A DNA stretch of 40,845 bases from Synechococcales cyanobacterium RM1_1_8 (GTDB lineage Bacteria > Cyanobacteriota > Cyanobacteriia > PCC-9006 > JAAUQQ01), in NCBI GenBank assembly GCA_012032745.1, contig JAAUQQ010000002.1:1-40845 (forward strand). Reading direction: 5' to 3'. Positions within the stretch are counted from its first letter, which is position 1; each line of letters opens with the position of its first letter. Below the pieces are notes generated by a model. It ran no database searches and was not told the DNA's origin. It saw only the letters and a list, made by a program, of their open reading frames with translations. Positions 7,792 through 35,973 of the stretch are shown here, piece by piece. A program made the position numbers and the translations under genes.

Positions 7792-9805
7792 GCTGGATAA
7801 ATCCGCAGCCGCCGGTTAGGCTCATTGCCAAAGCTCACCGACTTGAGCCGGTAGTGCTCAACCAGCTCATGCTGGATTTTGCGCACCTTGGGCGACCTGG
7901 GCAGCAACTCCACCGGCTGCCCCTTCGCCAAGACAATCTGCTCCACCGCCAGCCGCGCCTCCTCCAACGCCTCCAGCTCATCATCGTTGCCCTTGGCCGC
8001 AAACAAATTCAGATCCATCTCCTCTGGCATACTCGGATCCTCCATCTTCAGCAGGCGCTGCAAGGCCCGGACAATCTGGGGAAGCGTATTGGACTTAATC
8101 GTATGGATCGGAATCTCATGGTTCTTGGCCATGGCCCGCAGCTTGGAGTGATTCTTGAGGTGGCTGCGCAGGGCCAAGACCACATCGGCATTGCCCAAAT
8201 CCTTCGTGATCGTCACCGGTAGCTGCATGGAGCGAATCACCTGCTCCATCTGATGGCGACTGACAGCATAGGGATAGATATGGAGCGGCACACCATCGCC
8301 CGCCGCGCCGCCGCCATACTGGCCATAATCGGCTTGGCCATAATCCGCCGACCCCAAGTCCAGTCGGTCATCCCCGTCCCCTTCAGCATCCCAGCCCATG
8401 GGACTGAAAGAAGCGTCCAACATCTCCGAAAAGGTCTGGCGCGAGGGCTTGGTACTGCCCAGCTCAGGGAGGGCAATCAGGTTGCTGTGTCCCGGCACCG
8501 TGTGGCTAGCCCTGGAAAGCGGTTCCCCCAAGTTGGGCCACCGGAGAGGGGCACGGCTCGCAGGGGCTGGCGGCCCTCCCCTGGGGAGGCCGCGTTGTTG
8601 CTGCGCCAGCGGGTTTCCTGGCTGCCAGGCAGGCTCTGACCCCTGGACTGGTTTCGAGACTGGCCCCCGGCTGCTGCACCAGGGTACTCGGGACGGTCGT
8701 GGCTGATTTGGACTTTGCCCATCTCATCGATGCTGCGCACCTGGGGCTGGGGCGCTTTGCCCCGCAGTAGCATGTCCACGGTTTGAGAGACCGATTCATG
8801 GATGACCCAGCGCTGGCGCTCCAACATCTCCACCGCAATTTCAAAGGTCGGTGGCGCTTTGCGCTCCAGCACGGTCTTTTGGGTGCTGCGGCGACGGGCT
8901 TCATCATCTCCTAGGGTGACCGATTGGATGCCGCCCACCAGGTCCGACAGGGTTGGATTTTTGATCAGGTTCTCGATCTGGTTGCCGTGGGCGGTGCCGA
9001 TTAGCTGCACGCCTCGCTCGGCGATCGTGCGGGAAGCCAGGGCTTCCAGCTCGGTGCCAATCTCATCGATCACGATCACTTCCGGCATGTGGTTCTCCAC
9101 GGCCTCAATCATGACTTGGTGTTGCAACTCGGGCCGGGCAACCTGCATCCGTCGGGCGCGGCCGATCGCCGCATGGGGAATATCCCCATCCCCAGCAATT
9201 TCATTCGAGGTGTCAATGATCACTACGCGCTTATCCAGCTCATCGGCCAATACCCGCGCAATCTCCCGCAGCGCCGTGGTTTTGCCCACCCCAGGGCGAC
9301 CCAACATCAGGATCGATTGGCCGGTCTCCACTAGGTCGCGAATCATGCCGATGGTGCCAAAGATTGCTCGACCCACTCGACAGGTCAAGCCAATGATCTC
9401 GCCGGAGCGATTGCGCATGGCACTGATGCGGTGCAGGGTGCGTTCGATACCGGCTCGGTTGTCGCCGCTGAACATGCCGAGGCGATCGACGCAGTGTTTG
9501 AGATCGTTGTGGGTGATGAAGTCCTCGGATAAATATTCCGATCGCCCCGGAAAACGGGCTTCAGGGCGGCGGCCTAGGTCGAGGATAATTTCGACCAGCT
9601 TAGCCTTGTCGGCATGGTTGTCCAGCTTCGCTTGGAGAGACTTGGGCAAAATTTCAAACAGCGATGTCAGGTCATCAATCACCTGGGATTCATCCACCCG
9701 CATCTCGGTCTCCCCAGGGGCCAGCGAGGCATTGAGTTCATCTTGAACCTCAGCCAAGACCATGTCGTCTGGGGCACCGGAGCCTGAGGGATCATAATTA
9801 GCCAT
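7788..9805 (-). CDS. Ycf45-like R3H-domain AAA ATPase (frameshift at 8525-8529)
   Basis: This is a cyanobacterial/plastid Ycf45-type protein related to SpoIIIAA ATPases. Residues 169-176 form the Walker A motif GRPGVGKT, and [12 protein letters not shown] (~241-252) is Walker B. The N-terminal block ([20 protein letters not shown]) is family-typical. After residue ~425 the frame is lost in a run of five G (minus strand). One more G joins GGPTWG to [13 protein letters not shown] and continues through an acidic Tyr/Gly linker to an R3H domain at the C-terminus ([20 protein letters not shown]). R3H domains bind single-stranded nucleic acid. Restored length is ~672 residues. It may share a transcript with ldpA and ndhN upstream on the same strand. 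The precise cellular role is unknown. Confidence 0.85.
8323..8352. repeat. 15-bp tandem duplication in the linker of the Ycf45-like gene
   Basis: Two units starting CCATAATC (8323 and 8338) encode the repeated ADYGQ motif (minus strand) in the low-complexity linker before the R3H domain. Confidence 0.6.
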
Positions 9806-25669: not shown

Positions 25670-26613
25670 GTGAGCTTAGTGGCATTTCAAGTTGAATGCG
25701 TAGATACGACGGTGGCGAAGGATCAGAGTCAATATGGCAAATTTGTCATCGACTCACTTGAACGGGGCCAGGGAACGACGGTGGGCAACGCTCTCCGCCG
25801 GACGTTGCTAGCGAACCTTGGCGGCACTGCCATCACGGCAGTTCGCATTGCTGGGGTGAGCCATGAATTCGCCACTATTCCTGGGGTTCGGGAAGATGTG
25901 CTCGACATTTTGCTCAACGTCAAGCAAATCGTGCTCAATTCCACCATTGATCAGCCCCAGATTGGCCGTTTGCACGTCCAGGGCCCAGCCATGGTGACGG
26001 CGGGCCACATTGACATCAGCCCCGATGTGGAACTGGTCAACCCCAACCAGTACATCGCCACGATCGCCGCCGGGGCCAACCTTGAAATGGAGTTCAAGGC
26101 GGAGCGGGGCCAGGGCTATCGCACCTTTGAACGGGGCCGGGAAGATGTCACGGCCATGGATTTTCTCCAAATCGATGCTGTGTTCATGCCGGTTCACAAA
26201 GTGAACTACACCGTTGAGGCCACCCTCTCCCTGGAGAACGATGAAACCGATCGCGTCACCCTGGAGATCTGGACCAACGGCAGCCTCACCCCCCAGGAGG
26301 CCCTGAGCGAAGCCTCCAACAAGTTGGTTGAGCTATTCAACCGCTGCGGGAAATCAACTTTGAGGCCCCCGGCGAAGAAGAGCCCCAGGAGCGCCCCGAG
26401 AGCCAGGTGCCGATCGAAGAGCTACAGCTCTCCGTGCGAGCCTACAACTGCCTCAAGCGCGCCCAGATCAACACCGTGGCCGACCTGCTGGACTACAGCC
26501 AGGAAGACCTGTTGGAGATCAAAAACTTCGGCCAGAAATCTGCCGAAGAAGTGGTGGAAGCCTTGCAGCAGCGCCTAGGCATCACCCTGCCCCAATCGAA
26601 GCACAACGGCTAG
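25670..26613 (+). CDS. rpoA: RNA polymerase subunit alpha (missing base at 26341)
   Basis: The alpha subunit nucleates RNA polymerase assembly and contacts activators and UP elements. The N-terminal domain is normal ([40 protein letters not shown]). The frame breaks at CC 26341-26342. One C restores [20 protein letters not shown] and the C-terminal domain [53 protein letters not shown]. Restored length is 314 residues, standard. The start at GTG 25670 ([12 protein letters not shown]) has AGGAAGG upstream. The break falls exactly in the linker between domains, but rpoA is essential and split alpha is not known in this group, so an error is most likely. Confidence 0.93.
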
Positions 26614-31862: not shown

Positions 31863-33019
31863 CTAGGCCAAGGCGGGTTGAACCTGGCAGTAGCTGACCA
31901 AGAACAGCCCTTGGTCATCCTGCCAACTGGCCTGGGTTGTAAATCCCGCCTGGGCCACCAGGGCGGCAAAGCCTTGGGGGCTGTATTTGTAGGAATGCTC
32001 GGTCAGGAGGCGTTCCCCGGCTTGGAAGGCGATCGCTTCCCCCGCCACGGTCACCACTTGGTCCTGCAAGCTTTCGACATACATCTCAATGCGCCCCACC
32101 GCCGAGTTATAGAGTGCCCGGTAGCGAAATTGTGCCAGGTCAAAATCCGCCGCCAGTTCCCGGTTGGTGCGCTGGAGCAGATTGAGGGCGAAGGCCGCTG
32201 AGACCCCGGCGGCATCGTCGTAAGCCGCTTCTAACACGGCCTGATCCTTCTGGAGATCCACGCCAATCAGCAGGCCGCCGCCCGGCCCCACAAGCTGGGC
32301 GATGTTGCCCAGGAATGCTACGGCCTCCTGGGGCTGGAGATTGCCAATGGTGGAGCCGGGGAAAAAGGCCGTGCGCGCTTTACCCGCCAGCGCTTCCAGC
32401 GGTGGCAGCGCCAGGGGCAGGGTGTAGTCGGCGCAGATGGCGATGGTGGTCAGGCCAGTTTGGGGGCCAGCTTGAAGACCAGTGGCAGCCTCGTCAGCCG
32501 GAGGGGGACCGTAGTAGTTGGCGATCTGGCAGCAGGAGTCAATTAGGTGCTGCTTGGAGATATCCAGGGCCACATAGGCAGGCAGCGGTCGCTGGGCCTG
32601 AATCACGGCATCCAGCAGCGTGCGGACTTTTTGCTGCTGCCACTGCCATATTCCACCAGGACGCCATCGGCCAGGTGGGCGGCAATTTCTTCACCGTGGT
32701 CCGCCAAAATCTTGAGTTCGGTGCGGGTGGGATAATATTCGGGCTGCTGGGTGATTTGGACAAACAGCTCGGCTCCCCGCTGGTCGTAGAGGCATTTGGC
32801 GGGAAAGGCTTTGGGCTGTTGCCTCAGCCCTTGCATGACGGTTTGGCGGAAATCTTCTTCGACCGGGTGCAGGTCGAAGACGTAAACCTGGTCTGACAGG
32901 TAGAAATTGTCTGACGACGGATAGGCGTTGTCCTGCCCCCCGGCGGGTGGGCTCTCGGGTGAGCTCTCGGGCTGAATCTCGGGCAGGGTTGATGCAAGCG
33001 TAGCGGGCATGTCAGACAA
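31863..33019 (-). CDS. egtD: L-histidine N(alpha)-methyltransferase EgtD (missing base at 32627)
   Basis: EgtD trimethylates histidine to hercynine using three S-adenosylmethionine, the first step of ergothioneine synthesis. The first ~131 codons contain KAFPAKCLYDQRGAELFVQI, YYPTRTE and the SAM-binding start VEYGSGSSKK. The frame is then lost at GG on the minus strand (32627). One more base gives VRTLLDAVIQAQRPLPAYVA, LDISKQHL and the rest (TAFFPGSTIGNLQPQEAVAF, LLIGVDLQKD, NSAVGRIEMYVES). Restored length is 385 residues, with an N-terminal Pro/Ser-rich extension before the family domain. It follows egtB by about 140 bp, consistent with an egtB-egtD operon. The frameshift is likely a sequence error. 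Confidence 0.9.
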
Positions 33020-33160: not shown

Positions 33161-34560
33161 CTAACGGGCCAAGCGAATGCCACCGAACAGCCAGCGCGCC
33201 TCAGGGGGAAAGAAATTGCGGTAGCTGGAGCGGATATGGCTATGGGCGGTGGCACAGGATCCACCTCGCAACACCAGTTGGTTGCACATGAACTTGCCGT
33301 TATATTCCCCGATCGCCCCCGCTGCTGGGCGGTAACCCGGATAGGGACCATAGCTGCTCTGGGTCCATTCCCAGACATCGCCCAGTAACTGCCGCAGGCC
33401 GGTTCCCCCAGGGGCAGGCCGGGGATGGAGCAGATCCTGCTCGACAAAATTGCCCTGCTGGAAGTCTGCTGGCCCCAGGCTGATGGAGGCGGCCCGCTCC
33501 CATTCCGCCTCCGTGGGCAGCCGCTGTCCGGCCCAGCGGGCAAAGGCATCGGCTTCATAGCCGCTGACATGGCAGACCGGCTCGGCGGGATTCATCACTC
33601 GCAGGCCGCCCAGGGTCATGACCCACCAGCTCCCCTGGCGCTGCTCCCAATAGAGCGGCGCGCTCCAGCCCTGCTGCTGCACCTTAGCCCAGCCCTCCGC
33701 CAGCCAGTGCTGGGGCTGGCGGTAGCCCCCCGCTTCGATGAATTCCAAATATTCGCCGTTGGTCACCAAGCGATCGGCCAGGGAAAAATCCTCTAAATAG
33801 ACGCGGTGGCGCGGGCCTTCATTGTCAAAGGCAAAGCCTTCAAACTGGTCCAGTGGGAGCGCTCCCAGGTCTAACCCAATTTCGACTAAGCCCCCAGAGA
33901 ATGATTGATAGCCCAGGCTGGAATGAGCCGGGGCGGCGCTGGGGGCTGCTGAACCCGGAGCTGCTAAATCTGGGGCTGCCAAATCTGGGGCTGCCAAATC
34001 CGGCACTGCCAAATCTGCTCGATAGACGGGCCGCAGCGGATTGGTGGCCAAGATATGTTTGATATCCATCAGCAACAGTTCCTGGTGCTGCTGCTCATGG
34101 TGCAGCCCGAGCACCACCAGGGCTTCCACCGCAGCGTTGCCCTGCTCCTGGACGATCAGCTGGGCCATGGCTTCATCCACCGCCTGGCGGTAGGCGTAGA
34201 TGTCTCTCACGGTGGGGCGGGACAGCAGGCCGCGCTGGGGCCGGGGATGGCGATCGCCCAAGGCCTCATAGTAAGAATTAAAACAATAGTTATAGTCAGG
34301 GTGAAAAGGCCGATAGCCGGGCCAATGCTTCCCCAGCAAGAAGGTTTCAAAGAACCAGCTCACATGGGCCAAATGCCATTTCGGCGGGCTGACATCGGCC
34401 ATGGTTTGGATGGCGTAATCCTCAGTTTCTAGGGGGCGGCAGAGCGATCGCTCCAGGCTCGCACCTGTTGATAGTGGTTCAGGAGCGAGGGGGTGGAGGA
34501 AGGAGCGATCGCGCTAGGGCTCGCTGGGGAACTTAAAGCTGGGGAACTTAAAAGGGACAT
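33161..34560 (-). CDS. egtB: Hercynine sulfoxide synthase EgtB (missing base at 34444)
   Basis: EgtB is a non-haem iron enzyme that joins a thiol substrate (gamma-glutamylcysteine or cysteine) to hercynine with oxygen. The DinB-like domain has the iron-binding histidines in KWHLAHVSWFFE and LGLHHEQQHQELLLMDIKH. The FGE-sulfatase-type domain has RLPTEAEWERAA, GDVWEWTQSSYGPYPGY and VLRGGSCAT. The frame from 34402 lacks the true N-terminus. Adding one base at 34444 joins it to SLLNHYQQVRAWSDR, giving an ATG at 34560 and 466 residues. The linker between domains is a 15-bp repeat coding PDLAA units, and the N-terminus carries another 15-bp duplication. Probably co-transcribed with egtD. Confidence 0.9.
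33946..34020. repeat. 15-bp minisatellite, five units, in the egtB inter-domain linker
   Basis: Units start at 33946, 33961, 33976, 33991 and 34006. The consensus is CTGCCAAATCTGGGG. On the minus strand they encode PDLAA/PGSAA-type pentapeptides between the DinB-like and FGE-like domains. The outer units are more diverged. Confidence 0.85.
34524..34553. repeat. 15-bp tandem duplication in the egtB N-terminus
   Basis: CTGGGGAACTTAAAG (34524) is followed by CTGGGGAACTTAAAA (34539). On the minus strand it codes the duplicated SSPAL/SSPAS. Confidence 0.75.
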
Positions 34561-34805: not shown

Positions 34806-34943
34806 ATGACCCAACGCACCCTAGGTGGAACCAAACGCAAGCAGAAGCGCACCTCTGGCTTCCGAGCCCGCAGCCGCAGCCGCACGGGCTCGAATGTGCT
34901 CAAGGCCCGCCGCAAGAAAGGCCGCGCCCGCCTCGCGGTCTAG
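34806..34943 (+). CDS. rpmH: 50S ribosomal protein L34
   Basis: A 45-residue, very basic protein: [20 protein letters not shown], then [20 protein letters not shown] ending RLAV. GGAG lies about eight bases before ATG 34806. The rpmH-rnpA-(PH)-yidC-jag order is conserved in bacteria and in cyanobacteria. A hairpin follows before rnpA. Confidence 0.96.
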
Positions 34944-34979
34944 CAAGCTCGGTTGTTGGCATTGGAGTATCAGCATTGG

Positions 34980-35012
34980 GGGCGCAGACCCAGGTTCTGC
35001 GCCCTGTTTCTT
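34980..35012 (+). terminator. Terminator- or attenuator-like hairpin between rpmH and rnpA
   Basis: GGGCGCAG (34980-34987) pairs with CTGCGCCC (34997-35004) around a 9-nt loop, and TGTTTCTT follows. It is placed where partial termination would give much more L34 than RNase P protein. Confidence 0.55.
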
Positions 35013-35090: not shown

Positions 35091-35585
35091 GTGGCGCTTC
35101 CTAAGCCCTATCGACTAAGAGCGCGCCAGGAATTTTCACTGGTCTATCGCCGGGGACAGCGCTGGAGCGGCAAGCATTTGCTTCTGCGGGTGGCCCCCCA
35201 AGGGCGATCGCAACCGCCCGCCCCCAAACCCAAGCTGGCCCAGGCTGGGCTTAAGACTGGGCCAAAAGTAGGGGATGAAACCCCGGCCCCACCCCAGCCC
35301 AAACCCCAGCCCAAACCCATTCCCCCCGCCCTCCCCCCCAGCGGCGACCTCTTCCCCCAGCCGCATGGCCGTGGTCGTCAGCGTCAAGTCAGCAAACGCG
35401 CCGTTGTGCGCAACCGCCTGCGCCGCCAAGTGCAGGCTGCCCTCCAGCAACTCTTGCCCCGCCTCGCCCCCGATCAACTCCTGGTGATCACCCTCAAGCC
35501 CGGCGCAGTGGCGTGCGATTATTACAATTTTTTGCAAGAATTAGAAACATTACTCATAAACGCCGAGGCCATCCATGGGCATTAA
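35091..35585 (+). CDS. rnpA: RNase P protein component (hidden double frameshift)
   Basis: The protein subunit of RNase P, which matures tRNA 5' ends. Both ends read as RnpA in one frame: ALPKPYRLRARQEFSLVYRR at the start, and VSKRAVVRNRLRRQVQAALQ with LLPRLAPDQLLVITLKPGAV at the end. The conserved strand between them is wrong in that frame (HGRGRQRQ) but right in the next one (SRMAVVVSVK). So the frame is lost within the C-rich segment 35272-35365 (one extra or two missing C) and regained by a missing G at 35388. The single open frame therefore hides two errors, and the product as written would lack a core strand. The variable region is unusually Pro-rich. GTG 35091 follows AAGGAG and is the start. 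Confidence 0.9.
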   Translation: MALPKPYRLRARQEFSLVYRRGQRWSGKHLLLRVAPQGRSQPPAPKPKLAQAGLKTGPKVGDETPAPPQPKPQPKPIPPALPPSGDLFPQPHGRGRQRQVSKRAVVRNRLRRQVQAALQQLLPRLAPDQLLVITLKPGAVACDYYNFLQELETLLINAEAIHGH

Positions 35586-35973
35586 AGAAGATATTTTCTA
35601 TGAGGGAGGCCCCCACCGGGGCGAACTGCTCCTCAACCTGCTGATTGGCTTAACCATCATTGGCTTGCCCCTGGCCGTGGGTGCGATCGTCCGAGCCCTC
35701 TGGCTGCGCTACCGCATTTCCAATCGACGCATCTCCATCACCGGGGGCTGGATGGGGCGGGACAAGTATGAATTTATCTACAACGAAATCCGTAAGGTCG
35801 TCGCCATTCCTCGGGGCGTTGGCCTTTGGGGCGACATGGTGGTCACGCTCAACGATGGCTCCCGCATCGAAATGCGCGCGGTGCCCAAATTCCGCGAGGT
35901 TGAGGACTACATCAACGATCGCATCGCCAGCAAAAAAGCAGAGCGCAAAGCTGAGAAGAAGTCCAAGGCTTAA
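35575..35973 (+). CDS. PH-domain (bPH2-type) membrane protein
   Basis: 132 residues, overlapping rnpA by 11 bases. It has a hydrophobic N-terminal stretch (LLNLLIGLTIIGLPLAVGAI) that spans the membrane, followed by a bacterial PH-like domain (YRISNRRISITGGWMGRDKY, IRKVVAIPRGVGLWGDMVVT, SRIEMRAVPKFREVEDYIND) and a Lys-rich tail. Cyanobacteria keep this gene between rnpA and yidC; its function is not established. The other frame after the stop could encode 35 further residues (to 36079) if one T in TT 35970-35971 is extra; this is noted as a possibility only. Confidence 0.85.
   Translation: MGIKEDIFYEGGPHRGELLLNLLIGLTIIGLPLAVGAIVRALWLRYRISNRRISITGGWMGRDKYEFIYNEIRKVVAIPRGVGLWGDMVVTLNDGSRIEMRAVPKFREVEDYINDRIASKKAERKAEKKSKA

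Follow-up and report, generated by a model that had tools for sequence, protein, structure and literature searches.

The rnpA frame on this contig, open from end to end and acceptable to the usual family models, is with high probability the gene of an unexceptional cyanobacterial RnpA; the draft metagenome-assembled genome (MAG) around it would contain many one-base errors of the consensus, and two of these, opposite in sign, would fall within rnpA itself. The stretch analysed, hereafter the window, spans 40,845 nucleotides and constitutes the entire contig 220 of a 4.78 Mb genome in 486 contigs, estimated at 87.7% completeness. The features on which the argument turns are as follows:

34806 to 34943, plus strand: frame of rpmH (ribosomal protein L34) from the open reading frame (ORF) list, 5' of rnpA; we take it to be rpmH from its sequence and position, judged by eye
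35091 to 35585, plus strand: rnpA as annotated, GTG start, 164 amino acids, without internal stop
35272 to 35355, plus strand: range in which the first frame break falls (net gain of one base), within a C-rich linker; placed by the next-frame TAG at 35269-35271 and by alignments
35356 to 35388, plus strand: core beta strand PSRMAVVVSVK, displaced into the next frame; from protein and DNA alignment with relatives
about 35383 to 35388, plus strand: second frame break, net one base missing, with return to the annotated frame; from alignments and a one-base DNA gap
35575 to 35973, plus strand: PH-domain gene (PF03703), 3' of rnpA and overlapping its end

The same series continues 3' with yidC after the PH-domain gene. 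Between rpmH and rnpA, at 34979-35005, is a stem-loop resembling a terminator, one of 5 such sites in the region where 2.8 were expected.

Judged by family models alone, little would seem amiss. The annotated protein passes PF00825 with 68.1 bits against a cut-off of 22.3, and TIGR00188 with 45.0 bits against 38.35, so that automatic annotation would name it rnpA, as the first-pass annotation had predicted; two relatives of the same genus reach 69.2 and 70.2 bits with the latter model. The helix of the RNR motif is present in the annotated frame as KRAVVRNRLRR and aligns with that of relatives. The core strand that should immediately precede it in the same frame is missing there and exists one frame over: the PF00825 match falls into two pieces, covering profile positions 1-41 and 49-108 and skipping the strand at 42-48, where the RnpA of each of two relatives (G001 and G002) gives a single piece from 1 to 108. 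The initial observation that the frame has RnpA-like ends, with the core strand SRMAVVVSVK displaced into the next frame, is thus borne out by the split match and by the next-frame residues from 35359. In the annotated frame the strand region reads HGRGRQRQ, and one strand of the RnpA fold would be lost.

That the displaced residues are the strand itself is evident from relatives. The family to which the genome belongs holds five other genomes, of which three (G001 to G003) share its genus and two (G004 and G005) belong to another; no RnpA match was found in G003 or G004, and comparison within the family was accordingly made with G001, G002 and G005. G001 (CALIGI010000249.1) and G002 (CALLPZ010000301.1), both uncultured Pseudanabaenaceae MAGs, match the window at DNA level with the same gene order around rnpA, and their RnpA resembles that of the window at both ends, shares with it a long variable linker and is 56-58% identical over the annotated frame. 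They differ in reading PSRIAVVVSTK directly before VHKRAVVRNR, in one frame with the rest of RnpA, whereas the window's strand is out of frame; the alignment to relatives that had been proposed as a check therefore falls on the side of a displaced strand. The window's six frames contain 61,780 stop-free words of ten residues, and of these SRMAVVVSVK scores highest against the relatives' SRIAVVVSTK (BLOSUM62 score 35; runner-up 25), and the best word in each of 30 residue shuffles of the whole window scored only 18-24. Homology of the strand extends to the nucleotide level, since the blastn match to G001 and G002 starts at 35355 and 35356, and in the DNA alignment with both genomes the strand fits with one single-base gap, directly 5' of GTC. 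Over ten strand codons read in the next frame, differences at first, second and third positions number 1, 1 and 4 against G001 and 1, 1 and 6 against G002, a pattern that would be as expected under selection in that frame, small as the numbers are. Solved RnpA chains align over the core strand when the G001 protein is the query; with the window's protein as query, one solved chain was found, aligned from the RNR helix onward together with a weak N-terminal stretch.

The positions of the two breaks can be bounded with unequal precision. In frameshift-tolerant alignments G001 and G002 agree on 35383 for the missing base, whereas the extra base is put at 35322 with G002 and at 35349 with G001; as these two sites lie 27 bases apart, a single-base placement of the first break was rejected and an interval is given instead. 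That interval contains C runs of 6 and 7, plus a run of 5 at its end. The limits within which the frame must change and return, originally drawn from the next-frame TAG at 35269-35271 and from the GTC of VSKRAVV at 35388-35390, hold. Allowing two shifts lifts the alignment score by 46 (G001) and 48 (G002), penalties excluded; at a penalty of 20 per shift the two-shift alignment wins and at 30 the one-frame rnpA alignment does, so the alignment score alone gives moderate support.

How much of the Pro-rich stretch should be considered aberrant is a separate matter. A motif scan of 94 cyanobacterial loci recovered an RnpA frame in 61 (55 of them distinct; the remaining 33 loci may lack rnpA or fail the motif), and the core strand stands before the RNR region in all 55 distinct frames, 53 by pattern and two (L027 and L096) by eye. 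In the 55 distinct frames (loci L004-L032 and L053-L117), a rough measure gives a linker of about 5 to 64 residues ahead of the core strand, and a long linker is therefore normal in cyanobacterial RnpA. The notion of a novel Pro/Gln/Arg insertion was rejected, because a variable linker is usual at this place. Of the original interpretation, two compensating frame breaks are upheld by the single frame of relatives, by the nucleotide homology and by the lost core strand, whilst the Pro-rich stretch is not in itself the artefact. Misreading is certain only for the final residues ahead of VSKRAVV, and how far upstream the misreading extends depends on where in 35272-35355 the first break lies.

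Breaks of this kind are not confined to rnpA. They were counted against selected ORFs of G001 to G005 as references, with none taken from the window's own genome and with at least two reference genomes required for each break. A first automatic count, inflated because it took in antisense ORFs and used broken ORFs of the window itself as references, was discarded and replaced by this two-reference count. Three rows were dropped: window 24339 as antisense, and window 12244 and L130 9146 as each lay 5' of the reference ORF's start codon. This leaves the window with 10 of its 12 listed breaks, over 27.0 kb of conserved coding DNA, with net extra bases in 3 and net missing bases in 7. Two of the 10 are those in rnpA; the other eight, and three breaks on other contigs of the same MAG, are the following:

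25670 to 26578, rpoA ORF (RNA polymerase alpha): break at 26339, four reference genomes; C-terminal domain read in another frame
14187, break in rplB: three reference genomes, gene named by relatives' proteins
15639, break in rplV: three reference genomes, gene named by relatives' proteins
20954, break in rpsE: four reference genomes, gene named by relatives' proteins
32626 to 32635, minus strand: break in egtD (ergothioneine), three reference genomes
34443 to 34446, minus strand: break in egtB (ergothioneine), three reference genomes
39628, plus strand: break in an AAA ATPase gene, two reference genomes, gene named by relatives' proteins
8533 to 8539, minus strand: break in a gene with two pieces weakly matching SpoIIIAA and Jag models, both below cut-off; two reference genomes
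L146, 10891 (other contig of the MAG): break in a GDP-mannose dehydratase-like gene
L147, 7728 (other contig of the MAG): break in a DisA-domain gene
L136, 5831 (other contig of the MAG): break in a flavodoxin gene

The three contigs outside the window, which are the three longest of 14 retrieved and not a random draw, contribute 3 breaks in 15.4 kb, and together with the window give 13 in 42.4 kb, or 0.31 per kb. G001 to G004 together show 2 breaks listed and 1 kept in 95.2 kb (G001, 1 in 16.2 kb; G002, 0 in 30.1 kb; G003, 0 in 25.0 kb; G004, 1 listed in 23.9 kb and dropped). The frame-break rate of this assembly is thus high, with an excess over relatives of 13 in 42.4 kb versus 1 in 95.2 kb that reaches into essential genes. 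When breaks seen with one reference are counted too, the contrast is much weaker, at 30 in 58.5 kb for this MAG versus 46 in 130.6 kb for G001 to G004; such breaks, part of which were inspected, include reference errors, start regions and antisense frames. G005, the MAG Synechococcales cyanobacterium CRU_2_2 (loci L131, L035 and L173), has 6 breaks in 22.0 kb, and a second MAG of the family is therefore similarly affected. At 0.31 per kb, a Poisson estimate puts two breaks in a 495-bp gene in about 1% of genes, and a double break is therefore unremarkable for a window of this size. The sequence contexts of the breaks are mixed and indicate no platform.

Ribosomal proteins L2, L22 and S5 and the alpha subunit of RNA polymerase could hardly all be broken in one living cell, and the errors are therefore best placed in the consensus; the excess of breaks in essential genes of the window supports sequence error as the cause. 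We infer that the errors sit in the sequence and that the organism is unaffected. One error would lie in the C-rich linker and the other just 5' of VSKRAVV; their opposite signs would cancel and leave the annotated frame open, with about 11 to 39 codons misread, the core beta strand among them.

One must consider, nevertheless, that both indels might be genuine mutations, the first having broken rnpA and a second nearby having restored the frame with the strand left altered. The frame is indeed open throughout and scores above the TIGR00188 cut-off, and the first break falls among C runs (6 and 7 bases) at which genuine slippage is also possible; yet the segment enclosed by the two breaks has kept its conserved strand sequence one frame over, so that both changes would need to be recent, and the assembly also shows breaks in further essential genes that could not coexist in a living cell. 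We regard such a history as unlikely. It is very unlikely that the organism's sequence is as written and that its RnpA arises either by a pair of opposite ribosomal frameshifts or with the core strand replaced by a rebuilt segment, although, if true, an essential gene would here show a double frameshift or a rebuilt core strand, which would be rare. A genuine RnpA in which a new Pro/Gln/Arg segment has replaced the strand could appeal to the open frame above the family cut-off and to the natural occurrence of long linkers at this place. It is made extremely unlikely by the presence of the missing strand one frame over, scoring above the best word in each of 30 shuffles, and by the behaviour of the solved chain, which aligns with the window's protein from the RNR helix on and over a weak N-terminal stretch, where the G001 protein aligns across the strand.

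If the sequence were correct and ribosomes shifted frame twice, the forward shift in the linker could conceivably occur at its C runs, with a return ahead of VSKRAVV. Relatives, however, use one frame throughout (55 distinct RnpA frames, from 61 of 94 loci) and share no shift site; the RNA 3' of the second break folds no better than its shuffles (z -0.72; 52 of 200 at least as well), and inspection by eye for the usual pattern revealed no slippery heptamer at that break. Programmed frameshifting was rejected, being unneeded by relatives and lacking structure 3' of the second break, the one break that was folded, and we consider it barely credible. A search for a second, intact rnpA in the genome returned just weak matches, with E values of 0.12 and above. 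A single contig scan, which may omit the window's own records, found no second genome of the same species, the relatives having at most 83% YidC identity.

Consensus error in a draft MAG accordingly remains the reading that we favour. Indel errors that break genes in draft assemblies are the subject of PMC12007338 and PMC9262707, and as there, frame breaks are scattered across conserved genes, essential ones included; the window's rnpA differs in that its two breaks cancel and leave no split gene as the usual sign. It provides a clean example of a hidden error: with two one-base breaks of opposite sign, the gene still passes automatic annotation and might find its way into databases as an RnpA variant. 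As a frame break occurs roughly every 3 kb in conserved coding DNA here, other oddities of this assembly, such as split or truncated genes, should be read first as consensus errors. As for the organism itself, the RnpA encoded in the cell is most likely normal and has a long linker.
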